Part shown: positions 9,129-32,210 of the stretch, one piece after another | Layout of the letters: each line of letters opens with the position of its first letter | Position numbering within the stretch: position 1 is the stretch's first letter | Assembly (NCBI GenBank): GCA_029263395.1 | Contig: JAJCXO010000008.1 | Span: 1-33,113 of the forward strand | Source of the DNA: Acidobacteriota bacterium | GTDB lineage: Bacteria > Acidobacteriota > Thermoanaerobaculia > Multivoradales > J023 | Direction of reading: 5' to 3' | DNA length: 33,113 nucleotides | Translations under genes and position numbers: made by a program | The notes under the pieces: generated by a model | Told to the model about the DNA's origin: nothing | What the model saw: only the letters and a program-made list of their open reading frames with translations | The model's database searches: none

Positions 9129-11285
9129 TCATGGCAGGTACCCCAAAGCCCGCAACCTCGACTCGACCTCTGGATCTAGTTCACGAGTAACGGCTGGTGC
9201 AACAGGTTCGAGGCGATAACCATGCAACGTCCGCAGTAAAGACCGGCTCAGGTCCGAACGCTCCGAGCTAATGTCACGCAACTGAGCCGGATCCTTTTCG
9301 AGATCATAGAGTTCGATCTGCCACAAATCGGGAGTTGATAGTAGCAAGGAAAGACAGCGGTCGTCCTCGCTGAGCCCCACTTCCGCCGGTGAGTCACAGC
9401 TGGCAACCCTCAAAGTGACTCTCTTCTTATCGCCACCTTTCGGTAATTCGAGGCGAAGCTGGTGTTGCTCCGTCGGGATCCACACCTCACGTCCTGTTTC
9501 CCGCGCACCTTCGATTCCACGAGTCTTCAGTATTTGAAAGGATAGGCAACGGCGATCCTCACTGAGCCCCAATTCGGCCGGTGAATCACAACTGTCCGAC
9601 CGCAACGTCACCGAACGCTGATCCCCCATCGTCGTAAGATCAAAGCGTAGTGCCACAGGATGGGTATCAATCGACGCTTCGCCAGCAACCTCGGAAGCCG
9701 GTTGCCACAATCTTTCGGCGTTCCACAGTCTTTCGTCGTTCGACGTTACCGCTTTCGACGGCGGCCCTTGCTCGATGATTGTGTCAAGCTTGTTCGATCC
9801 CACAAAAACCTCAATACGTCGCTCACGGTGGAAACTCTGCAACTCGATCTCAACCACATCCTCACGACGACCGAAACTTACATCATGCGAAATCCACAGA
9901 CCCCCACGGTCCTTCGGTAGCTCCAGACCTGCATCCAAGTAGGGCTTTCCATCGACCAGAACTTCGAGTAGGCGAGGTCGATGAAAGCTCTCTACCCCGG
10001 CAACAAACGTCTCGTCAAACGTATCGAAGATGACCTCCTGTGACATCCACAGACCTTCTTCGAGACTCTCCTGTCGCGTCCACAACAACTGAAAAACACC
10101 ATCCCTAGTCTGCTGGACAAGGCTGCGACGGCGGTCCGAATCTAGACTCTCGACCAGGCTCTCCCGGGACTCCACAGGCTCGCCCGCGGTGAGTAACGGG
10201 GCCAGGCTTGTTCCCGACATCGGCGGCACGGATTCGATCGCTGCAAGCTCGTACAACGTCGGCGCTAGATCGATACTCCGGACGAGCTCCTGAACCCGTC
10301 GGCCACCGCTGATGGCCGGATCGAGGACAATCAATGGCACATGCAGTGTTTCACGGTAGATCTGGCTATGGAGGAACTGACCGTGATCTCCCAGTTCTTC
10401 GCCGTGATCCGACGTCAAAACCAGGGTCACCTCGTCCATCAACCCCATCGCCTCGAGCGCTCGGACAAAGTCCCTCAGCACATCGTCAAGATAGCGGATC
10501 TGGGCATCGTAGGCCGCCCGATAGTACGCCTTCTCTTCAGCCGTCGGGTGAGAATCACGTTGATTCAACTCGGTCAAGGAAGGACCGGTAGGCTCGATCA
10601 CTCCCTTCGGCGGCTCGCCAGACCAATAGAGCGAACTGTAGGCCGGAGGAAAGTGTGCCAATTCCATCCGGGTGTCAGCATAGGGATCGTGCACCGAATA
10701 GGTATGCAGGAAGAGGAAAAAACGGTCTTGCTCGGACTGCTGCTCCAGAAATCTCAAGCCGCGGGCAAATGTCCTTTCCAGATCCGTTTCGATCTCCAAC
10801 GCATGGTCGTTGAAGTCCTCGAAACCGCGAGCAAAACCAAACCCGCCGCTCATATACCCACCCTCGGTATGCCCCGCGGTACGAAAACCGTTGGCTAGGA
10901 ATATTTCGGGCAGGGTTGGAATACGATCGGACAGCACCCCGTTCGGCGGGTACACATTGTGCTCCGCGGGGTGTAATCCAGTGAAAATCGACATATGAGA
11001 AGGCAAGGTTCCGGGCAACTGAACAAAGGCATTCTCGAACAAGACGCCGCGCTCAGCCAGGGAGTCGATGAATGGGCTGGTGTCTCGAGAATAGCCGTAG
11101 CAGCCCAAATGATCAGCCCGCAGGGTATCGATCGAAATCAGGATAACCCCTCTGCTGCGAGTAGGCGCCTCCAAACTTCCGGAACATGCTGAGACAGCTA
11201 GACACAAGCCAACCGTGAGTGGCTTGAAGAGAGACCTCAGCCCCTTACCCTCGAAGATCACACCAGCCAGAGGCTCACTCCACAT
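9129..11285 (-). CDS. Sulfatase-fold lipoprotein with Thr at the nucleophile position and repeat insertion
   Basis: Alkaline-phosphatase-superfamily enzyme, 718 residues. Lipoprotein signal with predicted acylated Cys34 (LAVSAC). The core starts with a metal-site Asp53 (SIDTLRADHL), and the active-site loop reads GTLPSHMSIFTG, so Thr93 stands where sulfatases have the formylglycine cysteine and His97 where they have arginine. The second metal motif TSDHGEELGDHGQ is at 291-303. Residues about 403-655 are an insertion between the core and the terminal ELYDLEKDP segment, containing two kinds of duplicated beta-like unit. The protein ends LRALGYLP. The ATG overlaps the upstream gene's stop (ATGTGGAGTGA), implying coupled translation. 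Automated pipelines would call it a sulfatase. The Thr suggests phosphoester chemistry (hydrolase or transferase), which is inference. Confidence 0.85.
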   Translation of the reverse strand: MWSEPLAGVIFEGKGLRSLFKPLTVGLCLAVSACSGSLEAPTRSRGVILISIDTLRADHLGCYGYSRDTSPFIDSLAERGVLFENAFVQLPGTLPSHMSIFTGLHPAEHNVYPPNGVLSDRIPTLPEIFLANGFRTAGHTEGGYMSGGFGFARGFEDFNDHALEIETDLERTFARGLRFLEQQSEQDRFFLFLHTYSVHDPYADTRMELAHFPPAYSSLYWSGEPPKGVIEPTGPSLTELNQRDSHPTAEEKAYYRAAYDAQIRYLDDVLRDFVRALEAMGLMDEVTLVLTSDHGEELGDHGQFLHSQIYRETLHVPLIVLDPAISGGRRVQELVRSIDLAPTLYELAAIESVPPMSGTSLAPLLTAGEPVESRESLVESLDSDRRRSLVQQTRDGVFQLLWTRQESLEEGLWMSQEVIFDTFDETFVAGVESFHRPRLLEVLVDGKPYLDAGLELPKDRGGLWISHDVSFGRREDVVEIELQSFHRERRIEVFVGSNKLDTIIEQGPPSKAVTSNDERLWNAERLWQPASEVAGEASIDTHPVALRFDLTTMGDQRSVTLRSDSCDSPAELGLSEDRRCLSFQILKTRGIEGARETGREVWIPTEQHQLRLELPKGGDKKRVTLRVASCDSPAEVGLSEDDRCLSLLLSTPDLWQIELYDLEKDPAQLRDISSERSDLSRSLLRTLHGYRLEPVAPAVTRELDPEVESRLRALGYLP
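9336..9617 (-). repeat. Internal duplication in the 718-residue protein (unit type 2)
   Basis: Two copies encode residues 557-585 and 622-650 (bases 9617-9531 and 9422-9336). Both contain SCDSPAE followed by GLSED and RCLS, so the paired cysteines are kept. Similarity is visible at the DNA level as well. Confidence 0.8.
9789..10055 (-). repeat. Internal duplication in the 718-residue protein (unit type 1)
   Basis: Residues 411-446 and 462-499 are two diverged copies of one unit, each with L-W-[MI]-S, an E-[SL]-...-S-F-H-R pattern and a closing E-V-[LF]-V hairpin-like stretch. They lie just before the type 2 duplication in the same insertion. Confidence 0.65.
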
Positions 11286-12741
11286 ATCCGAGAGCCTTCA
11301 AGGCTTCTAGAGTCGCTTCATCGATCTCGACATCGATACGCTCTCCCTTCCCGCGAGTAGTGGCCTGAAACTCGAGGAGCTCGGCGGTCAAGCCCGCCGC
11401 AATATCGACGTTCACCTCGGAGACATCAGTCAACTCTCCGGCGTCTGATTCGAGATTGTACAGCCGCGGGCGTCCTCGGGGTGGAATGACCAACTTCCAA
11501 GGCATCCGCATCGCCGACCACAAATGCTCCTCAGTGTTCTCCTGTGGCCGCCGCCGAACGCGGTGCGCAAAAAGCGTTCGGCGCTCGAACACTCCGTTGG
11601 GTGGCCTCGAGCTTTGTGCCGCCAAGAGTCCAGCCAACGATTGACCATCACGGTTCAAAGGAGGTTCCAGGCCGACGAGGTCGACAACCGTCGGCATCAC
11701 ATCGATCAGGCTAGCTTGCACCCCGATACGACGTGCTGGGATCCCTAGGGTCTCTCCAGAGATGACAAATAGGACGCGAACCAGCTCATCATAAAGAGAA
11801 AAGAGATGGCCATACTGGCCATGATCGCCAAACTCCTCGCCGTGGTCTGAGACGATCACCAGTAGGGTTTCACGACCCCACTCGTAGTCAGCATAGAGTT
11901 TCGAGAGCACTGAATCAAGATAACCTATCTCACTGTCGTAGGCAGCGACGTCGGACGAGTGTGGTTCGCCTCCGTCCGCACGATCTTCTTCGAACCAAGG
12001 TGTGCGAGGCTCGTACGGCTTGTGGACATCGTTGAAATGCAGGTATAGGAAATACGGCCTGGCGTTGACGATCTGCTCTCGCCACTCTGAGAGTTTCTCG
12101 GCCAACCCCTCTGCGGACACACCCTTTGCCGGTGTACCGATGAGCTTGGCGAATCGATCGAAGCCGCGATCGAAACCAATCTCGGAACCGATATTGATGT
12201 TGGAAGCAAGACCAAACGTCGCATAACCGTGACCCCGAAGGAGTTCCGCCAGAGTCTCCTGGTCTCCCGGAAGGCGATTGAGGGCCATCGTCTCACCGAC
12301 TAGATCCTCGAGCGTGGCGGAGCGTCGGCGGTGGGCAAGAAATCCCTCGGTCACTCCATGGCGCATTGGGTACAACCCGGTGACCAAAGAACTGGTCGCT
12401 GGCGCGGTCCACGACGACGTCGAGAAGGCCTGGGTAAAAACCGTCGATCGTTCCATCAGTCCTTCTAGAAACGGAGCTGTACGCCGCTCGTAGCCGTTGA
12501 GGCTCAGATGGTCGGGGCGAAACGTATCCATCACAATCAAGACCACGTTTGGCCTCGCCCGTGCCGGGTCGACTGGAGGACTATGCTCGCCGTGGCTGCC
12601 ATCCTCTACGCGGCCACACCCGCCCACCGCAAGTACCAAGCACATACAAATCTGGCAGACCTGAATCCGGCCAAGCGGGCAAAACCACCGGCGGACTGCA
12701 GTCCTCACCCCTCTGGAGAGCGCAACACCGCGGTTCCTCAC
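11275..12741 (-). CDS. Sulfatase-fold lipoprotein with Thr at the nucleophile position
   Basis: Alkaline-phosphatase-superfamily enzyme, 488 residues, close to the bare core size. Lipoprotein signal with predicted acylated Cys42 (VLAVGGC). The metal-site Asp72 lies in VMDTFRPDHLSLNGYERR; the active-site loop is SSWTAPATSSLVTG, so Thr112 replaces the sulfatase Cys and Thr116 stands where Arg (or His in most relatives here) is expected. The second metal motif SDHGEEFGDHG begins at 298. The tail is LKALGYVE. The GTG start overlaps the preceding stop by 4 bases (GTGA) and sits on a G/A-rich stretch that may act as ribosome binding site; a second in-frame GTG lies at 12708. It is the middle member of an operon between the GT-C-like protein and the 718-residue paralogue. 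Substrate unknown. Confidence 0.85.
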   Translation of the reverse strand: MRNRGVALSRGVRTAVRRWFCPLGRIQVCQICMCLVLAVGGCGRVEDGSHGEHSPPVDPARARPNVVLIVMDTFRPDHLSLNGYERRTAPFLEGLMERSTVFTQAFSTSSWTAPATSSLVTGLYPMRHGVTEGFLAHRRRSATLEDLVGETMALNRLPGDQETLAELLRGHGYATFGLASNINIGSEIGFDRGFDRFAKLIGTPAKGVSAEGLAEKLSEWREQIVNARPYFLYLHFNDVHKPYEPRTPWFEEDRADGGEPHSSDVAAYDSEIGYLDSVLSKLYADYEWGRETLLVIVSDHGEEFGDHGQYGHLFSLYDELVRVLFVISGETLGIPARRIGVQASLIDVMPTVVDLVGLEPPLNRDGQSLAGLLAAQSSRPPNGVFERRTLFAHRVRRRPQENTEEHLWSAMRMPWKLVIPPRGRPRLYNLESDAGELTDVSEVNVDIAAGLTAELLEFQATTRGKGERIDVEIDEATLEALKALGYVE

Positions 12742-14396
12742 CCTCCCCCCTTTTCTCTAGGCGTCGCCGCCCCTCGTTCAGGGACGGGTTGCTGACTCAC
12801 ATCAGCGGTTTCGCGCTTGGCCTCGACAGCCGCTGCAGAGCCCTTGGTTTCAGGCGACGGCACCAAAGCAGGGTTGCCTCTAGCACGCGGGGGCTTGGAT
12901 TTCTTGGGCTCGCGGTCCAGCACAACAACTACCTCGGTCTTTTTAGCTGGCTTAGCCTGTAGATGCTGCCAATGTTTGAGCACCCGTACGTTCCGCTCAG
13001 GCATCTCCAAGCCAGCCCACGCCTGCACTGAGTAGTGCCCGAGCCGCACCACTCCCCGGTACATGGACGCCTCACGATCAGGGACGGTATTGCGGCGCGG
13101 AATTCGGATTCTTATGACCTCGCCGTCTGCGGCCGCCTCGATTTCACTCCTTACCTGCTCGACCAGTGCCGAGTACTCATCGGTCGCAACCTGCCATACA
13201 TCGTAAGACCGAACCAGCGGCGACCATCGCACCTGCCAATGAACGGTCCATAGGGTTACTGCAACCAGACAACCGGCCCCACCCAATTTGGCTAGCGTTC
13301 CACTTCGACGCATCAGCAGCACACATTCGTCCACGACGCCGGCTACCGTGATCGCAAAACCGGCGACTACAACAACGAGGTACCACGGAGACAGTCGGCC
13401 GGACGCGGTCACCATAACCGCAAGTAATCCGACCCAGCTAACACCCAACAGGAAGTCTGGGATCATGGCTGATCCAGACGAGCGCGGCTGCTTACCATGG
13501 CGGAGCCTCTGAAACAGAACACCCACAACCAACAGGCTAGACAAGCCCGCCCAGGTCGCCAAAGCAGTCCAGAAACCCGGCTGCTGTGGCGAGCTGATTG
13601 TCCGAAGCAACGTACCTACTGTCTCAGGAAGCCCTTCGAAAGAGGATATCGAGAGCGATTGCCGATGGCCTCCCATGCCACCTAAGACGGCAATCCTGCA
13701 GGCAATATAGATTGCAACCACAGCAGCCGAGAAGGCAACCGACCGAATAGGCGCCAGCCACCGTTTCACTCCTGTTTGATCCGAGCAGATCCAGTGCTGG
13801 GCAAAAACCAACGCAGGCAAGATCAGCGCAGTTTCCTTCGACGCCAAAGCCAAGAGCGTAGCCAAGGCCCCGGAAATTCGAAAGACCTTGCCGGTTCGAT
13901 TTTCCGAAGCCAGCGCCAACAACATGAATGTCAGACACAGAAACTCCGGCCGCCTGGGAGGATACGGAATCGCTTCGAAATGTAGCGGATGTAGCAGAAA
14001 GAATAACAGTCCAGCCAGTGCTGACCAGGCCGTGCGGCCATGCGGCCGCGAGACCAACAAGACGTACAAAGCGAGGCCCGACATAGCGAACCAGATAACA
14101 TTCGAGAATTGGTAGCCAGAGGGCTCCAAACCCCACAGTGCATAGTCCGCAGCAAACGTGAAATTCAACAACGGACGATAGAACTTGCCCGGAAAGAGAC
14201 CATCCATCAACCGCTCAGAGAAGTTTCCCCAGAAGTCGACCAGGGACCCCACGCGACTCGTCAAAATGATCGGGTACGAGTCCATGCCCAGGAGACCGTA
14301 GCTCCGGGTCTGGACAAACACCAGCGCAGCGATCCCGACAACGAGCAAGGCCGCAAAAGTGTGGACAGCGAGTTGGCGACGAGGAAGGGGCAGCAC
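12738..14396 (-). CDS. Multi-spanning GT-C-like membrane glycosyltransferase
   Basis: 552 residues with a string of hydrophobic helices from residue 10 to about 400. The early loop between the first two spans has an acidic residue in a D-S-Y-P-I context followed by FYRPLLNFTFAADYALWGL and an S-G-Y-Q-F-S-N segment. This loop resembles that of polyprenol-phosphate-sugar-dependent GT-C enzymes (PMT/TMTC-like), which work on the outer face of the membrane. The last 100 residues are a Pro/Lys/Ala-rich, probably disordered tail ending EKGGG. The start is GTG 14396, the only start after an in-frame stop, with GGAG upstream at suitable distance. It overlaps the next gene by 4 bases and is the first gene of the operon. 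The GT-C assignment rests on topology and loop resemblance; acceptor and donor are unknown. Confidence 0.7.
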   Translation of the reverse strand: MLPLPRRQLAVHTFAALLVVGIAALVFVQTRSYGLLGMDSYPIILTSRVGSLVDFWGNFSERLMDGLFPGKFYRPLLNFTFAADYALWGLEPSGYQFSNVIWFAMSGLALYVLLVSRPHGRTAWSALAGLLFFLLHPLHFEAIPYPPRRPEFLCLTFMLLALASENRTGKVFRISGALATLLALASKETALILPALVFAQHWICSDQTGVKRWLAPIRSVAFSAAVVAIYIACRIAVLGGMGGHRQSLSISSFEGLPETVGTLLRTISSPQQPGFWTALATWAGLSSLLVVGVLFQRLRHGKQPRSSGSAMIPDFLLGVSWVGLLAVMVTASGRLSPWYLVVVVAGFAITVAGVVDECVLLMRRSGTLAKLGGAGCLVAVTLWTVHWQVRWSPLVRSYDVWQVATDEYSALVEQVRSEIEAAADGEVIRIRIPRRNTVPDREASMYRGVVRLGHYSVQAWAGLEMPERNVRVLKHWQHLQAKPAKKTEVVVVLDREPKKSKPPRARGNPALVPSPETKGSAAAVEAKRETADVSQQPVPERGAATPREKGGG

Positions 14397-15621: not shown

Positions 15622-18378
15622 TCAGTCCAAGTAGCCTAGTGCTCTCAACTGATCCCGCAGTGCCGGGTCGATAGCAGTCGGATCCGACACCTTGTCTTCG
15701 GAGCGCCCCTTGCGGATGAGGGTCACAGTGACATCGGCAGCCGGATCAATCTCTCGATGGACGGTCCAACCCGATTGGTCGTAGCGAAGCTCCCAGGGCG
15801 AGGACAGATTGGGGTCGGTCTCTACGCGCAAGCGCTCAACCGACTTTTTGCCTCCGAACCACACCTCGATATCGAGAGACTCTTGGCCCAAACTCTCCAA
15901 GATGTACTTTCCTTCCCCCCCTGCCGAAACCGAGAACGCTGCTTCTCCGGCAAGGTTCTCGTCCCAAGAAAGTGGCGCTCCGTCCGGTTCCAACGTCTTG
16001 AGCTGGAAACCACGAATTCCGGCCCCCAACAAACGACCATGGCAAGACAGCTCGCCGCCACACCGAACGGCGATCTCAACCCCGAGTAGACTTTTTGACA
16101 ACCGTTCGAGCACGCGCTGCCGAATCTCCGGAGGTTCCGTTGCCGTCGCAGCGAGATTCCGTTCCTCCGTGGGATCCGTTTGCAGGTCGAACAGTTCGTC
16201 ACGCCCCGCCGGGACCTCCCAGGCAGTGTTGTTGAATAGATACTTGGTCCGCGAGCGACGCAGAGCGATCCCACGGTTACTCGAGGCAGCGTAACTCCAG
16301 GCCTCCCGATCGGTAGGGTCAGCCTCACCTTCGAGCAAAAGCTGCAGCGATTCGCCATCTATCTCAGGTACGTTCGATCGATCTAGCTTCAAAACATCGA
16401 TCACCGTCGGGACGACGTCAACCGACCGCACCTGCTCAGCGACCCGCCGGCCCCCTTCTCGACCAGCAGGCAACTTGACAATCAGCGGCACCAAAAGATT
16501 GAAGTCGTAAAGATAGCCATGAGAATCGAGCCCCTTTTCCCCAAATGCCTCACCGTGGTCCGACGTCAGGATGACCAAGGTGTTGCGATCGAGATCGGAC
16601 TCTGCAAGCCGTCCTAGCAGCCTGGCGAGCTGAGAGTCAGCGAAAGCTATGGCACTGTCGTAGCGATCTATCACCTCCGATAACTCATCGCGAGTAATCG
16701 GCACTTTGCCTACTTCCGGTCGATGCCAATGAAAGGCTTTGCGAACCAAATAGCCCTCGTTGGCAGGGGCAGAACTCTTCTCGGTCACCACGACCAAATT
16801 GTCTTCTGGCGCTCCTCGACCTCCGAGCTGATCGAAGAACGGCTGGCGTCGACGGTGGGGGCTGTGGACCTCAAAGGTATGCAGGAATAGAAAAAACGGT
16901 TCTTCGGAGGCCGCCTCTATCCAGCCCAGAGCTCGATCGACCCCGAACTCGATCTCGTCGTCTTTGGGAGTCTTGGGTGGCCAATAGTGGAACTGATCAA
17001 AACCCTGAGCAAAACCATAAGCAGGCCGCATCCAGCCACCACCGGTAATCGCCATCGTGCGATATGCCTCATCTCGCAGAATCTCGGGCAGCGACACGAT
17101 GGATGCCGGCATCGGCTGCCGATGATTGACGCCATGACGATCCGCATCGAGACCACTGAGCAAGGACACGTGCGACGGCAACGTCCATGGCGCCGAAACC
17201 ACCGCGGTCTCGAAGACAACCGCCGATTGAGCGGCCCAAGCATCGATTCGAGGCGACGTCTGACGACCGTAACCATAAAGCGACAGATGATCCGGTCTTA
17301 GTGTATCGACTGAGATGAGCACCACGTTGGGTCGCTCTCCTCCAGTCGCAGGGCGCAGGATCTCTGGATTGGCCCAGACTGGCAGACCTGCCGATACATT
17401 CCAGGACGGGTCGGCTGTCACTTCCAAAACGAGTTCGATCGTTTGCCCACCAAGGGCCGAAAGATCGACCTCGGCATCGCGCCACTGCCTCAACTCCTCA
17501 GCGGCTGGATCCACCGACGCCTCGAACAGCTCGATCTGCTCGCCATCTTCCTGCCGTGCGGTCACACGATAAGTTATCGGCAGCGCAGACCGACCCACGA
17601 GGCCATACGAGAATCGCAAGCGAGCCTGTTTAGGTAGAGAGATCTGGCGCTGTACCGGGTGCCCTGGTGGAGAGAGCAATGCATTGCGCATCTCGTGACC
17701 GATATCAACCTTCCACCCCAACTGGACGGCGGCTTCTAGAAAGCCCACAGGCGCCTCGTAGCGCAAACCGCGAATTCGCTCGATCCGCACCGCTTCTTCG
17801 GGCGCCATCGTCGGATCGATCCGCAGTCGGTGGATCATGCCGCTCCAACCGGGCTGATTGGAGACGTCGAGTCGATGCCTCACCGCGGCTTCGCCAGCCT
17901 CCGCATGACCATCTATCCACGAACCGAGTTCGGCGACAAAGTTGTTCCCTGGGGCGGTCCAGAACCATCTCAGAGGCCCTTGACGTAAGCCAGCAATCTC
18001 GATGTCGACCACATCGATCTCGAGCGCGTCTCGATCGATCTTATGCACCATCGAAGGCACTTTGGCCCCTCGTTGGACGAGGACACCTCCTGGTACCAAC
18101 TCGGCAGGCGCATCGAGTTGTCCCCACCGCCACGCCTCGAGATCTGCGGTGGTTTCGAAGCGCCAGTCGAAAACTTCAACCTCGTCGAACAGCGTTGTAC
18201 GATCAAACACTCCCGCCGGCTCCTCGCTCACCAACCGCTCAGCGATCTCCCAACGATCGTCCGGTTGCCGAGATACCACGCCGCAGCCGACTAGGAGCCA
18301 CATCACTCCCAAGACCAAACATCGCCATCCCCAGGCGGCCGAACTCGAGACTGTGGACTTCAAGGCTGTGGACTTCAA
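15622..18378 (-). CDS. Long sulfatase-fold lipoprotein (Thr-type) with N- and C-terminal beta domains
   Basis: 918 residues, roughly twice the bare core. Lipoprotein signal with predicted acylated Cys32 (WLLVGC). Residues about 60-345 form two beta-rich domains; the second opens with WKVDIGHEMRNALLSPPG (222-239), shared with the paralogues at 20309 and 29415. The core follows: metal-site Asp358 (ISVDTLRPDHLSLYGY), active-site loop PWTLPSHVSLLSG with Thr399 and His403, and second metal motif TSDHGEAFG (Asp607, His608). A C-terminal beta domain (about 765-890) precedes the tail LRALGYLD. The probable start is TTG 18378, overlapping the upstream GT-C stop by 4 bases, with GAAGG ahead of it; both lie inside a 15-base tandem duplication. 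Last gene of a four-gene unit. Likely periplasmic or surface phosphoester enzyme by inference; sulfatase is the alternative. Confidence 0.85.
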   Translation of the reverse strand: MKSTALKSTVSSSAAWGWRCLVLGVMWLLVGCGVVSRQPDDRWEIAERLVSEEPAGVFDRTTLFDEVEVFDWRFETTADLEAWRWGQLDAPAELVPGGVLVQRGAKVPSMVHKIDRDALEIDVVDIEIAGLRQGPLRWFWTAPGNNFVAELGSWIDGHAEAGEAAVRHRLDVSNQPGWSGMIHRLRIDPTMAPEEAVRIERIRGLRYEAPVGFLEAAVQLGWKVDIGHEMRNALLSPPGHPVQRQISLPKQARLRFSYGLVGRSALPITYRVTARQEDGEQIELFEASVDPAAEELRQWRDAEVDLSALGGQTIELVLEVTADPSWNVSAGLPVWANPEILRPATGGERPNVVLISVDTLRPDHLSLYGYGRQTSPRIDAWAAQSAVVFETAVVSAPWTLPSHVSLLSGLDADRHGVNHRQPMPASIVSLPEILRDEAYRTMAITGGGWMRPAYGFAQGFDQFHYWPPKTPKDDEIEFGVDRALGWIEAASEEPFFLFLHTFEVHSPHRRRQPFFDQLGGRGAPEDNLVVVTEKSSAPANEGYLVRKAFHWHRPEVGKVPITRDELSEVIDRYDSAIAFADSQLARLLGRLAESDLDRNTLVILTSDHGEAFGEKGLDSHGYLYDFNLLVPLIVKLPAGREGGRRVAEQVRSVDVVPTVIDVLKLDRSNVPEIDGESLQLLLEGEADPTDREAWSYAASSNRGIALRRSRTKYLFNNTAWEVPAGRDELFDLQTDPTEERNLAATATEPPEIRQRVLERLSKSLLGVEIAVRCGGELSCHGRLLGAGIRGFQLKTLEPDGAPLSWDENLAGEAAFSVSAGGEGKYILESLGQESLDIEVWFGGKKSVERLRVETDPNLSSPWELRYDQSGWTVHREIDPAADVTVTLIRKGRSEDKVSDPTAIDPALRDQLRALGYLD

Positions 18379-18380
18379 GG
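18351..18380. repeat. Perfect 15-base tandem duplication at a start codon
   Basis: CTGTGGACTTCAAGG occurs twice without change (18351-18365 and 18366-18380). On the minus strand each copy supplies a TTG codon in the frame of the 918-residue protein (18378 and 18363), encoding L-K-S-T-A then L-K-S-T-V. The upstream stop codon also lies within the first copy read. Confidence 0.9.
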
Positions 18381-20250: not shown

Positions 20251-20308
20251 TGGCGAGAAAGTATCGCAAGCCTGGGTGTGACTCAACCCAAGCCCATTGA
20301 ATCGACGG

Positions 20309-23125: not shown

Positions 23126-23548
23126 GTTGCAATCGCTCCGGTACGGGACGGCGGCCGAGCCTAACAAACCTCTCCTATTGGTTCCCGACTTTCGCTCAGG
23201 ATCCCGCGATGAAGATCGTCCAGGCGGCAACGTCGCACTGTTCGGTTCACATCGTATGGCTCGGCTGTTGCCGGAACGCACGACCGCTCACTACAATACC
23301 GCTCTCGAGCTGCCCAGGTCGTCAGATCGCGGCAAGTGATCGATCCGAACCGATCAGCACCGATGTTGATCGAGGCAACGGGCCACATAAATCAAGACTC
23401 TTTGGAGGTGCATGTGCCCAACCCCCCGATCGCTGGCACTGACGTAACGATGGTTTCTGGAGCTACACTCTCAGCCGCTACAGGCGCAAGCGGTAAGGTC
23501 TGTGACAGACCGATCTGCGGCGGCACGAACTCCGGTGATGCCGACCGG
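23126..23548. other. Divergent gap between two sulfatase-fold genes
   Basis: Up to 420 bases, depending on which starts are used on either side; frames of both neighbours remain open into it (to 23281 on the minus strand, from 23336 on the plus strand). It must contain promoters for the minus-strand unit and for the plus-strand trio. I found no convincing promoter boxes, hairpin or extra gene. Confidence 0.4.
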
Positions 23549-25089: not shown

Positions 25090-26697
25090 ATGCCACGACT
25101 CCAAACCTCCTCGGCTCGCGCTCGGACGGTATTTGGCCGACTTTCGGTTACCCAGCGGACTGTGGGGCTGTTGCTGGCCGTCGCCGTATTCGGCGGCTGC
25201 ACCCCGGAGCCGACGCCCCCTCCCAACATCTTGTTTGTGGTGTGGGACACGGTGCGCTCAGACCGGATGAGTCTTTACGGCTACCCGATCGCGACCACAC
25301 CGTTTCTCGATCGCTGGGCGCAGGACGCCCTGGTTTTCGACGACTGCGTTTCACCCGGAACCATCACGCTGGCGTCTCACGGTTCGATGTTCACCGGCCT
25401 GTTACCCAGCGAGCACGGTGCCGACAACCAGCGGACCAACCTACCCTCTCGTCACCACACGCTGGCCGAGATTCTGGCAGCCCACGGTTACCGCACTTTT
25501 CTCTGGTCGGCCAACCCGCACATCGCTAAACAAGGCAACTTTCACCAGGGGTTCGACGTGCACTTGCACCCCTGGAGCAAGCCCTACCTCGAGCGTGCAC
25601 GCCAGATCGTCAAGAACAAACTGTCTCCGCTGGACACTAGCAACGAGCTACTTCGGCGGCATGCCAAAAACACAGTCCGCAAGTGGGATATCAAAGCCTC
25701 TGGCAGCCTGGCTGGTGAAGCCCTGCTCGACTGGCTTGCCAGAGTGACGGGTGACCCGGACCAAGCATCGCCACCCTTTTTTGCTTTTCTCAACTACATG
25801 GAAGCGCACCGTCCGACGATTCCTTCGGCACAATTTCGTGAACGCGTCATGCCACCGGAAGACGTCCCCCGTTCCTATGAGGTCGATCGTAGCTGGCCAG
25901 CAATCTGGAGTTACAACTTCGGCCTCACCGACTTCACCCCCGAAGAACTGCGGGTGATAGGTGGAACGTACGACGCGGCCATTGCCGAACTCGATGAGCT
26001 CTTGCGCAATCTGCTGACATCCCTCGACGCCAACGGGCAGTTGGACAACACCATCATCGTGCTGACCTCCGACCACGGTGAGCACCTCGGCGAGCAGCGT
26101 CTACTAGACCATCAGTATTCAGTTTACGAGGCGCTGATCCGGGTGCCCCTGATCATCCATGCACCATCACGCCTCGCTCCTGGGCGAGACGAACACCCGG
26201 TCATGAGCTTCGACATCTTTCCCACCCTCCTCGCCTTTGCTGGGATCGACAATCCGATCGCTGACACCTCACACGCCGTCAGCTTGCTCGAACCAAGGTC
26301 CAGCCGGCCCCGACTGAGCGAGTACACAGCACCGTTCACGACCGCGTTCCGGACCGTCCGCGAGCGTCACCCAGACTGGCAGTCGGCGCCCTGGGAAACT
26401 GCCCTGAACGCCCTGACCTTTGACCAGAACAAGCTCGTCCGTCGGTCTGTCGACGGCACAACCGAGGTTTATCAACTAGCTTCAGATGGAGCCGAAACCA
26501 TCGACGTCAGCGAGACTCAGCCTGAGCTTCGCTCTGAGCTCGAAACCCTACTCGATCGCCACCTCGCAGCCACGACCCCCTTTCGCGCCGATGGCGAGAC
26601 CCTGCCAACGTTATCCGAAGACCAGCGTCGCCGATTACAAGCCCTCGGCTACCTCGACAGCTCGGACGAGACGCCGGCCACGCCCGAAGCGCCTTGA
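25090..26697 (+). CDS. Sulfatase-fold lipoprotein with Thr at the nucleophile position
   Basis: 535 residues. Lipobox AVFGGC gives predicted acylated Cys37, followed by the short proline linker TPEPTPPP. Metal-site Asp53 lies in VVWDTVRSDRMSLYGY. The active-site loop reads GTITLASHGSMFTG; by alignment with relatives Thr93 takes the cysteine position and His97 the arginine position, with Ala where Pro is usual. The second metal motif TSDHGEHLGEQ has Asp328 and His329. Residues about 165-225 form a Lys/Arg-rich helical insertion absent from the other copies. The LQALGYLDSS tail is here followed by about ten extra residues. ATG 25090 is 29 bases after the canonical sulfatase stop; it has no clear Shine-Dalgarno. 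Probably co-transcribed with both neighbours. Phosphoester activity is inferred, substrate unknown. Confidence 0.85.
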   Translation: MPRLQTSSARARTVFGRLSVTQRTVGLLLAVAVFGGCTPEPTPPPNILFVVWDTVRSDRMSLYGYPIATTPFLDRWAQDALVFDDCVSPGTITLASHGSMFTGLLPSEHGADNQRTNLPSRHHTLAEILAAHGYRTFLWSANPHIAKQGNFHQGFDVHLHPWSKPYLERARQIVKNKLSPLDTSNELLRRHAKNTVRKWDIKASGSLAGEALLDWLARVTGDPDQASPPFFAFLNYMEAHRPTIPSAQFRERVMPPEDVPRSYEVDRSWPAIWSYNFGLTDFTPEELRVIGGTYDAAIAELDELLRNLLTSLDANGQLDNTIIVLTSDHGEHLGEQRLLDHQYSVYEALIRVPLIIHAPSRLAPGRDEHPVMSFDIFPTLLAFAGIDNPIADTSHAVSLLEPRSSRPRLSEYTAPFTTAFRTVRERHPDWQSAPWETALNALTFDQNKLVRRSVDGTTEVYQLASDGAETIDVSETQPELRSELETLLDRHLAATTPFRADGETLPTLSEDQRRRLQALGYLDSSDETPATPEAP

Positions 26698-26726: not shown

Positions 26727-28427
26727 ATGCCGCACCTCATGACGCATCTCACGACAAGGTCCCTTGTTAAACTCGCCGCTGCAGCCGGATCATTAGCGAT
26801 AATCTTCGGGCTGCACCGGGGTATCCGGTCTGGAGGTGCCTGGTCAGGAGGTCTGTGGCCAGGACTATCGGAGGTCTCCGATCATCAATATCTCGAATAC
26901 GGACTGTGGAGCCTTTCGGCTCGCATCCTGCGGCAAGCGCTCGATCCGATCTGGAGTCAAACCCTCCTCATAGGGCTTGGGCTCTTCGGAATCGCCGTGC
27001 TCGTGTCCTGGCTCAAGCCGACCTGGCGAATTGCCCTCAGGTCGCGTTGGACCTTCGCGCTGATTGCTGTCGGAGGCATCCATCTGTTAGCGACGTTACT
27101 GATCTACGGTATCGCAGGCACGGATTCTGGTCGCAACACAACGCGCCCCAACATTCTGCTTGTCGTGGTCGATACATTGCGAGCTGACCATTTAGGGTTC
27201 ATGGGATACCCCAAACCAACGTCTCCCCACCTCGATAATTTTGCCACCGACACCATCATCTTCTCGCAGGCCTTAGCGCACGCCCCCTGGACTTCGCCCT
27301 CTGTTGCAGCCTTGCTCACTTCGCAGTACCCAGGAGCCTTGGGGTTTGCCGACAGTAAGGAACCTGCGCGGCCGGACGACGAAGTGCTGTACTTGGCCGA
27401 GATTCTGAGAAACCAAGGTTACCCGACCACAGCGATCGTCTCCCACACCTACATCGGCAGTCGCCTCGGTTTCGACCAAGGCTTCGAGCGCTTCGAGGAG
27501 AGTGACGCCCGCGGGCCGGACTATGTCTCTTCGGCTTCGGTGACCGACAAGGCCGTCCACTTCCTGGAAGGTCAGGGAGAAAAACCCTTTTTCCTGCTCC
27601 TGCACTATTTCGACCCCCACTTCGCCTACCAACTCCACGAGGAATTCAACTTCGACCCCGACTATGAGGGTGACGTCCAGAGTGGCGAGAGTTACGGCAA
27701 GTTGCTGCAACGAGCCCGAAACGAGACGCTTTCGGAAGACGATGTGACCTTCATCCGAGCCCTCTACGACTCGGAAATTCGGTTTACCGACCAACATCTC
27801 GGGCGTCTCTTCAAGCACCTCCGAGATCGCGATCTCTACGACGACACGCTCATCATCTTCACCGCCGACCACGGCGAGGCCTTCCTCGATCGCAAAGACC
27901 GCTGGATCGGCCATGGCAAAACTCTGTTCCAAGAGCTGATCCATGTGCCCTTGGCGATTAAGTTACCGGCCAGCGAAGGTGCTGGCACGATCGTCAACAC
28001 GCCGGTTGGTTTGATCGACGTGGTCCCCACCCTGCTCGAGCTGTTCGATATCCCGTTGCCAAACCGTCATCGATTCGAGGGCAGCGTGTTACCACTCAAC
28101 GACCTCGATGTCCTCAGTCAGCTGCCACCAACCCCGGTCTTCAGTGAAACCCTGGCCCGCAATCGATGGCTCCAATCGGTTGTCGAGGGCCAATGGAAGC
28201 TCATCCTCAATCGTGAGACCCAAAAGCTGAGGCTATTCGACCTCGCGGCCGATCCGCTGGAGACCACTAATCTGGCAGACCGCGAGCCCGCCACGACCCG
28301 GCGGCTAATGGGCGCGCTCCGTTCGTGGAGTGCCAGCGTTGACGAACGTCGCCAAGGGGCTGGATCTCCGGCCAGCTTCACCACTGAAGAAGAAGACAGA
28401 CTGCGTGCCCTGGGATACCTACCCTAG
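26727..28427 (+). CDS. Membrane-anchored sulfatase-fold protein with Thr at the nucleophile position
   Basis: 566 residues. The only one of the eight without a lipobox: it has two or three N-terminal hydrophobic segments (about 14-29, 80-96, 110-129) and then the catalytic domain, presumably periplasmic. Metal-site Asp149 lies in VVVDTLRADHLGFMGY. The loop is PWTSPSVAALLTSQYPG: Thr189 is in the nucleophile position, but the following histidine seen in relatives is Val193 and the usual Gly is Ser199, so the pocket is altered. The second metal motif TADHGEAFLDR (Asp381, His382) is intact. Tail LRALGYLP. This N-terminal membrane domain plus AP-fold plan recalls phosphoethanolamine and glycerol-phosphate transferases, though the number of spans is lower. 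ATG 26727 follows the previous stop by 29 bases; last of the + strand trio. Confidence 0.82.
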   Translation: MPHLMTHLTTRSLVKLAAAAGSLAIIFGLHRGIRSGGAWSGGLWPGLSEVSDHQYLEYGLWSLSARILRQALDPIWSQTLLIGLGLFGIAVLVSWLKPTWRIALRSRWTFALIAVGGIHLLATLLIYGIAGTDSGRNTTRPNILLVVVDTLRADHLGFMGYPKPTSPHLDNFATDTIIFSQALAHAPWTSPSVAALLTSQYPGALGFADSKEPARPDDEVLYLAEILRNQGYPTTAIVSHTYIGSRLGFDQGFERFEESDARGPDYVSSASVTDKAVHFLEGQGEKPFFLLLHYFDPHFAYQLHEEFNFDPDYEGDVQSGESYGKLLQRARNETLSEDDVTFIRALYDSEIRFTDQHLGRLFKHLRDRDLYDDTLIIFTADHGEAFLDRKDRWIGHGKTLFQELIHVPLAIKLPASEGAGTIVNTPVGLIDVVPTLLELFDIPLPNRHRFEGSVLPLNDLDVLSQLPPTPVFSETLARNRWLQSVVEGQWKLILNRETQKLRLFDLAADPLETTNLADREPATTRRLMGALRSWSASVDERRQGAGSPASFTTEEEDRLRALGYLP

Positions 28428-28594
28428 CGATCTAGAGGACACGGCGACCCCATCCCCATCTCTCGTTGCCTCATCCCCTAGTGCTTGCCCTGCCCCGTCC
28501 AAAGATGGGATCATCGCGTACCGGAAAGCCTTCGGCCCAGATCTTTCCGAACACGCCGATAAAACTAGCTGGGCCGTTTCCAAGTGGAGAAAAA

Positions 28595-28990
28595 ATGAAA
28601 AAAGTCAGCCTTCTGCTCGCGGTCGCGGTCCTGCTCCTTCCAACGTTCGGCGGCCAACTCGGCGCTGACGAAGCTACCACCCTGACCGGCGAGTACGTCT
28701 GGAATCGCCAAGATGTACCGACCGAGATCGAAGCTGTCTTCACTCCAGCCGGAGACGCCAAATGGGATGTCTCATTCCATTTCGACTTTCGTAATGAAGG
28801 GCACATCTACACCGGGACCGCGGAAGGTAGCCTCACCGAAGGCTCGCTCAAAGGTGAAGTCAGGAACGAGAACAAGAAACGCACCTTCATTTTCTCGGGC
28901 GAATTCTCTGACGGCGTGTTCAACGGCACTCACGCTGAGCTTCGTGACGGCAAAAAGACCGACACGGGCACGATCAAACTGAGCAGCTAG
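28595..28990 (+). CDS. Small secreted protein of unknown function
   Basis: 131 residues from ATG 28595, chosen because it starts a classical signal peptide (MKKVSLLLAVAVLLLP, cleavage expected after LGA near residue 24) and has GTGGAG just upstream. The frame extends upstream to 28466, but that part does not look coding. The mature domain of about 107 residues is all-beta in pattern, with paired segments TGTAEGSLTEGSLKGEV and IFSGEFSDGVFNGTHAEL that look like successive strands of a small barrel or sandwich. No cysteines, lipobox or sorting signal. Family not recognised. It follows the sulfatase-fold trio by about 170 bases and probably has its own promoter. It faces the convergent 931-residue gene. 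Confidence 0.85.
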   Translation: MKKVSLLLAVAVLLLPTFGGQLGADEATTLTGEYVWNRQDVPTEIEAVFTPAGDAKWDVSFHFDFRNEGHIYTGTAEGSLTEGSLKGEVRNENKKRTFIFSGEFSDGVFNGTHAELRDGKKTDTGTIKLSS

Positions 28991-29132: not shown

Positions 29133-29200
29133 GCGAGTTCGGAGCTGCGGCACAGCTCACAAGGCTGACCGAGTTCTCTATGTGCTTGGATGGGATTTGG
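29133..29200 (+). repeat. Local direct repeat, first copy
   Basis: GCGAGTTCGGAGCTGCGGC and the following bases match 29331-29400 over about 70 positions, with scattered mismatches and small gaps, in the same orientation. A TTGGATGGGATTT block is identical in both. Confidence 0.85.
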
Positions 29201-29233
29201 TTAGTTGTTTGTGCCGGCGACGCCTGTTTGGCG

Positions 29234-29314: not shown

Positions 29315-29330
29315 GGGAATTTCTGAGCGG

Positions 29331-29400
29331 GCGAGTTCTGGAGCTGCGGCGCAGCCCACAAGACCGACCGAGCTCTCTATGTGGCTTGGATGGGATTTAG
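29331..29400 (+). repeat. Local direct repeat, second copy
   Basis: Second copy of the 29133-29200 sequence, ending 14 bases before the stop of the convergent 931-residue gene. Together the two copies flank the hairpin element. Confidence 0.85.
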
Positions 29401-29414
29401 CTCGTGCCCGCCGC

Positions 29415-32210
29415 TCAGTTGTTGAGGTAACCCAAAGCCTTCAACTGTTCGACGAGCGCCGGGTCGATCTCACCCGCCGATACGGTGGCTGTCCGGGTAC
29501 CCCGGCGACGCAGTCTGATCTCGACCTCAGGATCACCGTCGACCGCAGCCTCGATCCAACCCGACCCATCATAGGCCAGCGTCCAGCTGTCCTCCAGCGC
29601 GTCGAGATCTACCGTCACTCGAAACGGGCCTGGATCTCCGCTTTCGCATCCTGTGACCGTCCCGGCCAAAGTCAACGGCCCTCGCGGCGCCTCCATCAAA
29701 ACTCCGAACGACTGTGAGGGCTCGACTCGAAAGCTGGCGCGGCGCGGTTCAATCCAGACGAAGCCCCCGTCCGGGAGCCCCTCCGACTTGATCCGCGAAA
29801 TGTGCATCGCCAAGCCTGTTGCCATCCCCTCTATCGTGCCACAGCTGCGGTTGTCGAAGTTGAGGCGCACTCCCTGAGAACGCTCTTGCAGCAGGGTCGT
29901 CAGCCGGGTCCTGAATCCGTCCACCTGGCGCTGTGAATCGGCAGCAATGTCCTGTCGCTCCGCCGCGTCCAAACTCAGGTCAAATAGCTGGTCACGGGCG
30001 ACGAGGGGCTGCCAAGCCGTATTGTTGAAGAGATACTGCAACCGATCATTGACCCGCAACGACACACCATAGTTGGTGGATCCGGCATAACTCCAAGCTT
30101 CCCGCGCCCCCGCAACCTCGGTTGACAACAGCAACGGCAGCAAGGAAGTGCCATCAACAGGCCGACTGGTGGTCTCTGTTTCAATCCCGAGGACTGCGAG
30201 CATGGTTGGCACAATATCGACGGTACTGACTTGCGCGTCGACCACCGACCCGGCACCGTCGCCGTTGGGTAGGGCCATGATCAAAGGCACCAAGAGGTTG
30301 TTGTCGTGCAAAGTGGCGTGCTTGACGAACCCTTCCTCCCCTAACGACTCGCCGTGGTCGGAAGTCAACACAATCAAAGTGTTCCGGTCGAGTTCGAGCT
30401 CGCGTAACCGATCGAGCAGGCGACCGACCGCCGCGTCGGCATGGGCGACGCCGCTATCGTAGAGACAGTTGACCAAGGGGAGATCGGCCTCGGGAGCTGG
30501 CTCGGCATCAGTAATCGACAACTCCGGCAGCCACTTGCGCAATTCGTAAATAACCGCAAATCCGGAGTCAGCCTGCCGTTTCTTTTCGACCGCACCATAA
30601 AGCACTTCCCCGGCCTCCCCCTCCGGCGCAACACAACGGCTGGCATACGGCAGCCGATAACGGTAAGGGTCGTGGACTTCGTAGGTGTGAAAAAAGAGGA
30701 AAAACGGCCGCTGGGCACTGCTCAAGGAGTCCGACGCGTGATCCACTCCGACGCTGACTTCGTTTTCCGCCGCCTGGGCCTGCCCCCAGTAGCGAAACAC
30801 ATCAAACCCTTGGGCCAAGCCTTTGTCGGGATGTAGCCAACCACCTCCGGTGATGCCGAGGGTCGAATAACCTTCCCGACGCAAGATCTCCGGCAACATG
30901 TCGATCTCGAGCGGCGCCGGCTGCCGGTGATTGACGCCATGGGTAAGCGCATCGAGTCCAGACAACATCGAGACGTGGGACGGCAGCGTCCACGGTGCCG
31001 TAGTCACCGCTCGCTTGAAAACGACCCCTGACGTCTTGGCCCACCGATCGATATTCGGCGACGTCGGTTGCGGATAACCGTACACCCCGAGACGATCCGC
31101 CCGCAGCGTATCGATCGAGATCAAAACGACATTCGGCATCTGCTGGCTGTTGGATCGTTCGACGATCTCAGGATGGCCCCAAGCCGGAATCCCGTCTTCG
31201 AGAACGTAATCCTCACCGTTGGCGACAGTTTCGAAGACCAACTCCTCAACGGTGGAGGCCAAATCCACCGTCGCCTCGAGCCATTGACCGGCCCGTGGGT
31301 CGCTACCCGGATCGACGATATCTTCGAATACCGTCGTAGCATCCGCCCCGATAATCCGAAACGTCATGGCTGGTCCCGTGCCCTGGGGTAAACCGTAGGC
31401 GAAACGCAACGCGGTAGACACGCCAGAGGTGGATGCTGGCCGAGTTGGTGCCGGCACCGTCCAGGTGCGAGGCACCCCGGGCGGACTCAACAGCGCGTTG
31501 CGTGCTTCGGATCCCAGGCTCACCTTCCAATCCTGAGCTACCAGCCCTGCCAGCATACGCGACTCGAAGCCTTCTTCGCCGACGGTCGAGACCGACCGCA
31601 GCTCGACAACCTGCCCGTCGATATCCGGCACATCGAGCCGCAAGGCGCGAATCTTGCCTTGCCACAACGGGTGGTCGGCCAGCTCGAATCGATAGGTCGC
31701 GACCTCCCCGGTCGAACGCCCCACGTCCACCACAGCCCCCCGCTCCGCGATGAAAATCTCTCCCGGGCCGACCCAGAAGAGGCGAAGCCGTCCGCGTTGT
31801 ATACCTCGGACTTCAACCACAACCGCCGAGACGTTCTCGGCCAACAGATCCACCTCCCGGGACAGCCGAACGAAACTCCCGCCGGTACCCGTGGGAGGCA
31901 CACGCAAAAAGCCATCTTCAGCGGACAGAGCCGACGGCTCAGGAGTTTTCCAACGTCGCGGTTCGTCCGGATTACCCAGGTTCCAGATCTCGTAACCGTG
32001 GGCCTTCTTCACCCGGTCCAGATCGAGAATCAAGTCCGTCGGCTCGGCAATCAAACGGTGGGAAATGGCCCAAGAAGCCTCATCCACCTGACGATTACAG
32101 CCGGATAAGGCAAGACCTGCCAACAACAGGCCACATGATAGGCCGCACAGTGAGCCACGCAGTAGGCCGCGCAGACCGCCCGCATGGACGAAAGCATCAA
32201 TAGAGCGCAT
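29415..32210 (-). CDS. Long sulfatase-fold lipoprotein (Thr-type) with N- and C-terminal beta domains
   Basis: 931 residues; ATG 32210 begins a lipoprotein signal with lipobox LALSGC (Cys38). Residues about 60-350 hold two beta-rich domains: the first includes IQRGRLRLFWVGPGEIFIAE, the second opens with WKVSLGSEARNALLSPPG (228-245). Core: Asp367 (ISIDTLRADRLGVYGY), active-site loop PWTLPSHVSMLSG with Thr408 and His412, followed by H-G-V-N-H-R, and TSDHGESLG (Asp618, His619). YLFNNTAWQP and LFDLSLD segments precede a C-terminal beta domain with three cysteines, then the tail LKALGYLNN. It is the third member of the long subfamily and the only one standing alone, between the repeat-rich spacer and a divergent glycosyltransferase gene. 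Its signal region is built from repeated G-L-R/C-G-L codons. Activity on phosphoesters is inferred. Confidence 0.85.
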   Translation of the reverse strand: MRSIDAFVHAGGLRGLLRGSLCGLSCGLLLAGLALSGCNRQVDEASWAISHRLIAEPTDLILDLDRVKKAHGYEIWNLGNPDEPRRWKTPEPSALSAEDGFLRVPPTGTGGSFVRLSREVDLLAENVSAVVVEVRGIQRGRLRLFWVGPGEIFIAERGAVVDVGRSTGEVATYRFELADHPLWQGKIRALRLDVPDIDGQVVELRSVSTVGEEGFESRMLAGLVAQDWKVSLGSEARNALLSPPGVPRTWTVPAPTRPASTSGVSTALRFAYGLPQGTGPAMTFRIIGADATTVFEDIVDPGSDPRAGQWLEATVDLASTVEELVFETVANGEDYVLEDGIPAWGHPEIVERSNSQQMPNVVLISIDTLRADRLGVYGYPQPTSPNIDRWAKTSGVVFKRAVTTAPWTLPSHVSMLSGLDALTHGVNHRQPAPLEIDMLPEILRREGYSTLGITGGGWLHPDKGLAQGFDVFRYWGQAQAAENEVSVGVDHASDSLSSAQRPFFLFFHTYEVHDPYRYRLPYASRCVAPEGEAGEVLYGAVEKKRQADSGFAVIYELRKWLPELSITDAEPAPEADLPLVNCLYDSGVAHADAAVGRLLDRLRELELDRNTLIVLTSDHGESLGEEGFVKHATLHDNNLLVPLIMALPNGDGAGSVVDAQVSTVDIVPTMLAVLGIETETTSRPVDGTSLLPLLLSTEVAGAREAWSYAGSTNYGVSLRVNDRLQYLFNNTAWQPLVARDQLFDLSLDAAERQDIAADSQRQVDGFRTRLTTLLQERSQGVRLNFDNRSCGTIEGMATGLAMHISRIKSEGLPDGGFVWIEPRRASFRVEPSQSFGVLMEAPRGPLTLAGTVTGCESGDPGPFRVTVDLDALEDSWTLAYDGSGWIEAAVDGDPEVEIRLRRRGTRTATVSAGEIDPALVEQLKALGYLNN

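Follow-up and report, generated by a model that had tools for sequence, protein, structure and literature searches.

Threonine in place of the sulfatase cysteine in PF00884 proteins of Acidobacteriota and Planctomycetota: a clade with an EptA-like set of site residues and a C-terminal LxxLGY tail

INTRODUCTION

Why would a cluster of proteins assigned to the sulfatase family carry threonine where a sulfatase has its formylglycine cysteine? The question is raised by contig JAJCXO010000008.1 of an Acidobacteriota bacterium (assembly GCA_029263395.1; genome of 10.7 Mb in 291 contigs), analyzed here at its complete length of 33,113 bases and called the window below. Eight of its open reading frames (ORFs), between positions 9129 and 32210, match the sulfatase model PF00884. 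An earlier note, made from the sequence letters, had described seven of them as Thr-type proteins that might act in phosphotransfer or phosphodiester hydrolysis.

Barbeyron et al. reported in 2016 that PF00884 holds many Thr proteins not callable sulfatases: Thr stands for Cys/Ser in 30 of the 59 PFAM seed proteins, and the profile was judged incorrect and a source of spreading false annotations (PMC5066984). The mis-annotation itself is therefore already known. Thr is the nucleophile in LtaS and YejM, and phosphatase activity is described for YejM (PMC7576196). E. coli OpgB and OpgE, which have 'sulfatase' domains, add phosphoglycerol and phosphoethanolamine to periplasmic glucans; they are integral membrane proteins with three to four membrane segments, and a soluble form of OpgB shuttles phosphoglycerol between glucans (PMC3818809).

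RESULTS

Seven of eight clustered PF00884 proteins have threonine at the catalytic position

All eight ORFs score 140–178 bits against PF00884 (Pfam cut-off 25). Thr occupies the catalytic position in seven and Cys in one (23336–25060). The eight ORFs lie where the earlier note had placed them, and the nucleophile loops read as it had given them (T-L-P-S-H, T-A-P-A-T, T-L-P-S-H, T-I-P-S-H, T-L-A-S-H, T-S-P-S-V and T-L-P-S-H). Each of the seven combines the Thr with D-T-x-R, DHGE, a late His and a C-terminal LxxLGY tail. None has the C/S-x-P-x-R of formylglycine sulfatases (Thr in 7/7) or their Asp-Asp pair (D-T in 7/7). The further claim that the metal motifs are kept holds for D-T-x-R and DHGE, but the longer form SIDTLR is found in three proteins only; elsewhere the first motif reads VMDTFR, SVDTLR, VWDTVR or VVDTLR, and DHGE is preceded by TS, VS or TA. 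The eight proteins are as follows.

9129–11285, minus strand: Thr-type PF00884 protein, 718 aa; lipobox VSAC; D53, T93, H199, D293/H294, H306; tail LRALGY at 9138–9155.
11275–12741, minus strand: Thr-type PF00884 protein, 488 aa; lipobox VGGC; D72, T112, H240, D299/H300, H312; tail LKALGY at 11284–11301.
15622–18378, minus strand: Thr-type PF00884 protein, 918 aa; lipobox LVGC; N-terminal tandem modules; D358, T399, H505, D607/H608, H620; tail LRALGY at 15631–15648.
20309–23281, minus strand: Thr-type PF00884 protein, 990 aa as called, the real start probably lying further inside; lipobox IMGC; N-terminal tandem modules; D428, T469, H574, D679/H680, H692; tail LEALGY at 20318–20335.
23336–25060, plus strand: the sole Cys-type PF00884 protein of the cluster; LCLPSR (C177), D137-D138, D399-N400, K412; no tail; its residues read as an ordinary formylglycine-sulfatase signature.
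25090–26697, plus strand: Thr-type PF00884 protein, 535 aa; lipobox FGGC; D53, T93, H240, D328/H329, H341; tail LQALGY at 26635–26652.
26727–28427, plus strand: Thr-type PF00884 protein, 566 aa; three hydrophobic segments N-terminal of the catalytic domain; D149, T189, H298, D381/H382; tail LRALGY at 28401–28418.
29415–32210, minus strand: Thr-type PF00884 protein, 931 aa; lipobox LSGC; D367, T408, H513, D618/H619, H631; tail LKALGY at 29427–29444.

The Thr type is not a peculiarity of this cluster. An alignment of the genome's 43 PF00884 frames to a model of the eight window proteins shows Thr in 38, Cys in four and another letter in one. The 7/8 of the cluster is about this genome-wide ratio, so the cluster is not special in its Thr content; local enrichment was considered and rejected. 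Instead, the seven belong to a clade that holds 38/43 of the genome's PF00884 frames. The ligand set is complete in 35 of the 38, the exceptions being L004 and L007, with incomplete signatures, and L009, with Cys at the late His position. The genome also has 18 matches to PF03781 (FGE-domain), some of them pieces of one frame, versus only four Cys-type PF00884 frames.

Among 20 genomes from the relatives search, this one included, PF00884 matches number from 12 to 58 per genome. A genome of the same order (G017) shows the reverse ratio, with 11 Thr, 27 Cys and three unreadable, and Planctomycetes bacterium Pla163 has 25 Thr, nine Cys, two Ser and two unreadable. One Pla163 paralogue, L120:6907-8712, has a Ser nucleophile and GHG for DHG, retains a tail (LRVLGY), and is likely a dead or altered copy. 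Apart from L028 (below), 26 related loci were found. Most belong to Planctomycetota or to Acidobacteriota (among them Thermoanaerobaculia and Holophagae), and Nitrospinia and Deltaproteobacteria contribute single metagenome-assembled genomes (MAGs).

Sulfatase residues change in concert with the nucleophile

We compared 135 Thr-type and 51 Cys-type frames, a non-random set from three whole genomes and loci picked by similarity. A copy was dropped only when it had the same last 200 residues as another, and the counts may thus include a few truncated copies twice; 12 of 198 frames fall outside these counts, their nucleophile being unreadable or neither Thr nor Cys. Arg at nucleophile +4 is present in 51/51 Cys-type and 0/135 Thr-type frames, 70 of the latter having His there. 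The first ligand is Asp in 133/133 readable Thr-type frames and is followed by Thr in 119/133, versus a second Asp in 45/48 readable Cys-type frames. The His of HxP (133/133 readable) and D-H-G (134/134, followed by Glu in 132) are equally constant in the Thr type. At the late position, Thr-type frames have His in 132/133, whereas Cys-type frames have Lys in 31/48 and His in three. The residue after the third Asp is Asn in 37/50 Cys-type frames; DH occurs in 11, so DH alone is not diagnostic.

The complete ligand set is found in 130/135 Thr-type frames, despite identities to 29415–32210 of mostly 24–38% (one of 71%) among the Thr-type members of an alignment built around it (A1). Thus the sulfatase-type residues scored change in concert between the two types, and the D-T-x-R/DHGE/late His pattern of the Thr-type frames is not due to chance. 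On a 176-row FastTree with 172 labelled rows, the split between Thr and Cys amounts to one change.

A C-terminal tail marks the threonine-type proteins

The LxxLGY tail is a shared trait of the Thr-type proteins that the earlier note had not mentioned. In 29415–32210, L926, G927 and Y928, near the C-terminus, are at least 90% conserved in A1, alongside the invariant ligands. Past the catalytic core, the pattern occurs in 123/135 Thr-type versus 1/51 Cys-type frames; the regular expression is short, and shuffled C-terminal regions gave it in 38 of 3940 trials. The single Cys-type match (L137) sits 337 residues ahead of the frame end. The commonest letters in the 123 tails are approximately [DS]xExxxxL[RK]ALGY[LVI], with G and Y set by the pattern itself. 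At the median, the tail lies 180 residues past DHG; the frame ends no more than 60 residues beyond it in 108 cases and more than 200 beyond it in 13. In the model of 29415–32210, a helix predicted with middling confidence (917–926) leads into the tail.

Several of the 12 Thr-type frames without the pattern are cut or atypical: L012 and L056 are cut at a contig or locus edge, L029 stops short of the end of its tblastn match, L019:4153 has a tail under an alternative pattern, and L004 and L007 are the frames with incomplete signatures. The pattern was not found in E. coli EptA, OpgB or AslA, and LapC gave one loose match (VDGLNY). Since the Thr/Cys split is one change on the tree, the link between Thr and tail represents one event and long retention, not many independent events.

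Three loci of the same genome (L011, L015 and L017) have Thr-type genes that extend ∼280 residues past the tail. L011 and L015 adjoin PPIC-type rotamase proteins and L017 an FG-GAP/ASPIC-UnbV protein; these may be a separate system.

The modeled scaffold matches sulfatases and phosphonate monoester hydrolases

One of the seven Thr proteins, 29415–32210, was modeled with AlphaFold2 from 48 rows (mean pLDDT 86.3, pTM 0.83). The Foldseek and VIA matches listed for it are S1 sulfatases and phosphonate monoester hydrolases (PMHs), with VIA Z scores of 36.6–40.6. The highest Z score listed from VIA is that of 6hr5 (Z 40.6, root mean square deviation (rmsd) 2.3, 348 aligned); the PMH 4uph is also listed (Z 39.2, rmsd 3.0, 388 aligned). 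The best 60 of 145 matches in a profile search of PDB sequences are enzymes of the same kinds. In a phmmer search with 26727–28427, two chains of phosphoethanolamine transferases rank at the low end of the best 60 of 93 matches. The 50 VIA and 50 Foldseek matches listed contain neither EptA nor LtaS chains, though such matches are not thereby excluded. By scaffold and nearest solved sequences, then, the proteins are not members of the EptA or LtaS families.

The window proteins share with S1 sulfatases the PF00884 domain, the first Asp, the HxP His and, for 29415–32210, the scaffold. The sulfatases differ in having Cys/Ser-x-Pro-x-Arg, a second Asp and usually Lys at the late position, whereas the Thr-type clade has its fixed DHGE, late His and LxxLGY tail. 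PMHs/phosphodiesterases (S1_0; 4uph, 2vqr) have the same scaffold and the phosphate-ester chemistry proposed here, but use a formylglycine nucleophile (PMC5066984) in contrast to the Thr of all seven.

The threonine site co-aligns with that of EptA

When the translated E. coli eptA gene is aligned with 29415–32210, E244, T282, H385, D455, H456 and H468 stand opposite D367, T408, H513, D618, H619 and H631. Six of the seven window proteins have the late His 12 residues after the His of DH, as does E. coli EptA, also in its published numbering H453–H465 (PMC7576196); in 26727–28427 the distance is 14. In one structure of MCR-1, the equivalent residues His395 and His478 ligate Zn2 (PMC5175174). 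Hence the likeness to EptA that the earlier note had drawn is borne out for Thr and the ligand set in sequence alignment, but not as family membership. The EptA N-terminal domain (EptA_B_N, PF08019) is absent from the Pfam hits of the eight proteins and from the whole genome, the E. coli control being positive. The best score for an EptA/MCR domain model of NCBIfam (NF028537) is 55.4 against a cut-off of 500, the LtaS equivalog reaches at best 30.2 bits against 970, and none of the listed NCBIfam models attains its own cut-off on the window proteins. Identity to E. coli EptA is at most 25% in a 57-row set. The NPP-type model PF01663 (cut-off 23 bits) is exceeded by all eight proteins, including the Cys-type 23336–25060 (36.3), and so does not discriminate. 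Elsewhere in the genome, a PF01663-type phosphodiesterase frame (L010:12904-14562) stands immediately before a Thr-type gene.

Scored against a Thr-type profile (131 sequences) and a Cys-type profile (41), EptA gives 70.6 vs 23.3 bits and LapC 79.5 vs 54.3; AslA goes in the opposite direction, with 93.9 vs 260.7. These scores place the Thr type between EptA and sulfatases. LtaS, OpgB/OpgE and YejM/LapC resemble the window proteins as extracytoplasmic enzymes of the alkaline phosphatase superfamily, with glycan substrates in the case of OpgB/OpgE. OpgB and LapC fall on the Cys side of the 176-row tree (support 86), whereas the 57-row tree places EptA and LapC with the Thr type and OpgB with the Cys type (99). 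In both trees EptA, OpgB and LapC sit on long end branches and their placement is unstable, and therefore we claim no ancestral state.

Putative lipoproteins with carbohydrate-binding-like modules

A lipobox pattern is present in six of the seven Thr proteins, which are probably lipoproteins as judged from sequence; the seventh, 26727–28427, has its three hydrophobic segments before the catalytic domain. In E. coli, an Asp after the lipobox Cys retains a lipoprotein in the inner membrane. None of the six has Asp there, so under that rule inner-membrane retention is not expected.

The three large proteins (15622, 20309 and 29415) have ∼320 N-terminal residues in common, shared with proteins of L028, L031, L032 and L035. 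A profile of this part finds matches, often of partial length, in 12 of 40 genomes of the phylum, this genome included. Modeled alone from nine rows (pLDDT 82.6, pTM 0.67), it forms two β-sandwiches, which in 29415–32210 correspond to the following feature.

31143–32105, minus strand: tandem β-sandwich modules, N-terminal part of 29415–32210, from predicted structure.

Carbohydrate-binding modules make up many of the fold matches listed for these modules. The top VIA matches include CBM27 (Z 12.1) and CBM86 (11.6), with a complex I assembly factor and meprin also at 11.6; Foldseek ranked a CBM22 tandem first, which superposed poorly as a whole. These matches are suggestive of a resemblance between the predicted modules and carbohydrate-binding domains.

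Gene neighborhood

A sugar transferase and a glycosyltransferase lie on one side of the cluster; on the other, a further glycosyltransferase begins. The remaining features of the region are listed here.

6594–7940, plus strand: bacterial sugar transferase (Pfam).
7941–9116, minus strand: group 1 glycosyltransferase (Pfam).
12738–14396, minus strand: hydrophobic protein, 552 aa, read from sequence as probably a membrane protein; no Pfam family above cut-off, no match among PDB sequences.
18375–19796, minus strand: hydrophobic protein, 473 aa, probably membrane by its sequence; no Pfam family, no PDB sequence match; 79% identical to an L028 gene.
19801–20286, minus strand: 161-aa protein, no Pfam match; 77% identical to an L028 gene.
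28466–28990, plus strand: 174-aa protein, no Pfam match; 73% identical to an L028 gene in the same place.
32313–33113, plus strand: glycosyltransferase start, cut by the contig end; Pfam GT4 matches slightly below cut-off.

Genes run tightly: 15622–18378 overlaps 18375–19796 by 4 bases, 9129–11285 overlaps 11275–12741 by 11, and 11275–12741 overlaps 12738–14396 by 4; the genes at 23336, 25090 and 26727 are consecutive with gaps of 29 bases. An Rfam search of the window gave no match. At 1–3963 there appears to be part of a type I restriction-modification locus, with a Methylase_S match for 2656–3963 and two preceding frames recognized by eye.

The Acidobacteriota MAG OFTM268 (L028), the closest named relative to which the cluster led, has counterparts of nine window genes at 69–88% identity, that of 23336 being partial where the stretch ends. 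Gene order is kept for 32313, 29415, 28466, 26727, 25090, 20309, 19801 and 18375. The counterpart of 32313 has 940 aa and scores above the cut-offs of group 1 and family 2 glycosyltransferase models. The Cys-type sulfatase (23336–25060; L028:21874-22731) is the only one of the nine shared genes to differ in place, lying beyond 18375 in L028.

Contig C136 of the same genome (L008, L009) holds a comparable cluster of six PF00884 genes (five Thr, one Cys), whose neighbors are GT2, group 1 glycosyltransferase, YfhO-like, MBOAT and AlgX-like proteins. For other Thr-type genes, we surveyed 94 of 160 neighbor frames from a crude frame caller, some surely not genes; the survey excluded the window, L003, L004, L006, L007 and L028, as well as any frame longer than 1000 aa or lying more than 2.5 kb away. 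Among the 178 Pfam families in these 94 frames, the 25 commonest include no glycosyltransferase family; the most frequent are TPR (up to 8/94), FG-GAP (6/94) and ASPIC/UnbV (5/94). Single glycosyltransferases do occur in L008 and L009, and 2 of the genome's 49 GT2 matches lie inside stretches fetched around PF00884 genes. On this survey, a general presence of glycan genes around Thr-type genes was not borne out; the idea of Thr-type paralogues wired into glycan operons suits the window and contig C136, and no such theme is evident around the other Thr-type genes.

DISCUSSION

How the threonine-type proteins may act

We think it fairly likely that the seven Thr proteins are extracytoplasmic, lipid- or membrane-anchored metallo-phosphoesterases or phosphotransferases that act on surface glycans, using a Thr nucleophile in a site of EptA/MCR pattern on a sulfatase/PMH scaffold. 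The coordinated change of site residues argues for phosphoester chemistry by a Thr nucleophile. Likely surface location, modules that resemble carbohydrate-binding domains and glycosyltransferase neighbors together point to surface glycans as the target of the window proteins, and OpgB/OpgE provide a precedent of periplasmic 'sulfatase-domain' enzymes that decorate glucans (PMC3818809). The active site would consist of one Asp and a Thr in the first motif, the nucleophilic Thr, Asp-His and two more His, at positions able to bind a second zinc in EptA/MCR-1. Attack of the nucleophilic Thr on a phosphodiester or a phospholipid head-group would give a phospho-Thr intermediate. In a transfer reaction, a hydroxyl of a sugar in a surface glycan would then take up the phosphate; in hydrolysis, water would. 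The tandem modules of the three large paralogues may hold the glycan.

Several points weigh against this proposal. The lipoboxes are pattern matches, with a hydrophobic segment above threshold in only four of the six. EptA, LtaS and OpgB/OpgE are integral membrane proteins, LtaS having membrane segments, and a lipoprotein form fits hydrolysis at least as well as transfer. Jelly rolls are common, and the list that contains the carbohydrate-binding modules also has MAM, complex I assembly factor and insecticidal-protein domains. Glycosyltransferases are missing from the 25 commonest families in the surveyed neighbor frames of the other Thr-type genes. In a second MCR-1 structure, the second zinc is bound by His395 but not by His478 (PMC5175174). 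Finally, the profiles compared are unequal in size, and OpgB scores nearly equally on them (24.7 bits with the Thr profile vs 22.4 with the Cys profile), being hardly closer to the Thr type than to the Cys type.

The seven might instead be hydrolases only and catalyze no transfer. As phosphodiesterases, phosphomonoesterases or phosphonate hydrolases, they would remove phosphate groups from glycans, nucleotides or phospholipids, in the service of nutrition or turnover. We rate this a serious contender, somewhat short of an even chance. Besides sulfatases, the closest scaffold is that of the PMH/phosphodiesterase 4uph; six of the seven are likely anchored as lipoproteins, not integral to the membrane; and the Thr-type relative YejM has phosphatase activity (PMC7576196). 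Yet the cluster is intermixed with glycosyltransferases and a sugar transferase, which gives it a biosynthetic look, and one member resembles transferases in having several hydrophobic segments ahead of the catalytic domain. The proposal of glycan-directed phosphoesterases or phosphotransferases allows both transfer and hydrolysis, so it overlaps with the hydrolytic alternative and the likelihoods of the two do not add up.

Sulfatase action by the Thr-type proteins appears unlikely from their residues. That they are unusual sulfatases using Thr directly, or a modified Thr, might be argued from the scaffold and nearest solved sequences, which are mostly those of sulfatases, from the Cys-type sulfatase within the cluster and from the genome's PF03781 matches. 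However, the +4 Arg of all Cys-type frames is missing from every Thr-type frame, the second Asp is replaced, as is the Lys in most cases, and oxidation of Thr would yield a ketone, not formylglycine (Barbeyron et al., PMC5066984); we regard this as very improbable. About as improbable is that the proteins have lost catalysis and persist as binding or scaffold proteins for the sake of their accessory modules and tail. The modules are large, and the Planctomycetota relative with Ser and GHG does keep its tail, but retention of the full ligand set in 130 of 135 divergent frames speaks against loss of catalysis.

Implications for PF00884 annotation and for the family

The concern that standard annotation hides these proteins under 'sulfatase' is justified insofar as they hit PF00884 and reach the cut-off of no NCBIfam model; as news it was anticipated in 2016 (PMC5066984). 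The Thr seed proteins of that paper have the same Thr for Cys/Ser, and the part available describes no clade, ligand set, tail or gene context for them. A literature search, mostly outside subscription journals, found no description of the clade, of an EptA-like ligand set on a sulfatase scaffold or of the tail, and all three are apparently new.

Sulfatase content is gauged by counting PF00884 matches. For one Kiritimatiellales strain, the count was 548 genes with PF00884 plus PF14707, 367 with PROSITE signatures and 521 with models made by the authors (PMC6388578). Since most hits in that strain were taken to be sulfatases, the counting error varies in size with the lineage. In the genome studied here, 39 of 43 PF00884 frames are without the signature Cys, and a PF00884 count would therefore be badly misleading. 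As candidate glycan-phosphate enzymes, members of the clade are simple to recognize from sequence: they have Thr, DHGE, a late His and LxxLGY, and lack the +4 Arg. The clade also raises an evolutionary question, namely whether the EptA-like site is new on the sulfatase scaffold or the older state.

More tentatively, Acidobacteriota and Planctomycetota may have an undescribed lineage of enzymes, with copy numbers that reach dozens in a genome, that combine a sulfatase scaffold with an EptA-like dinuclear-metal Thr site and the LxxLGY tail, and whose carbohydrate-binding lipoprotein members add, move or remove phospho-substituents on cell-surface polysaccharides. This wider picture is possible, though we would sooner expect part of it to fail than the whole to hold. 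If true, it would be a phosphate counterpart to the sulfatase expansions known in planctomycete-type bacteria.

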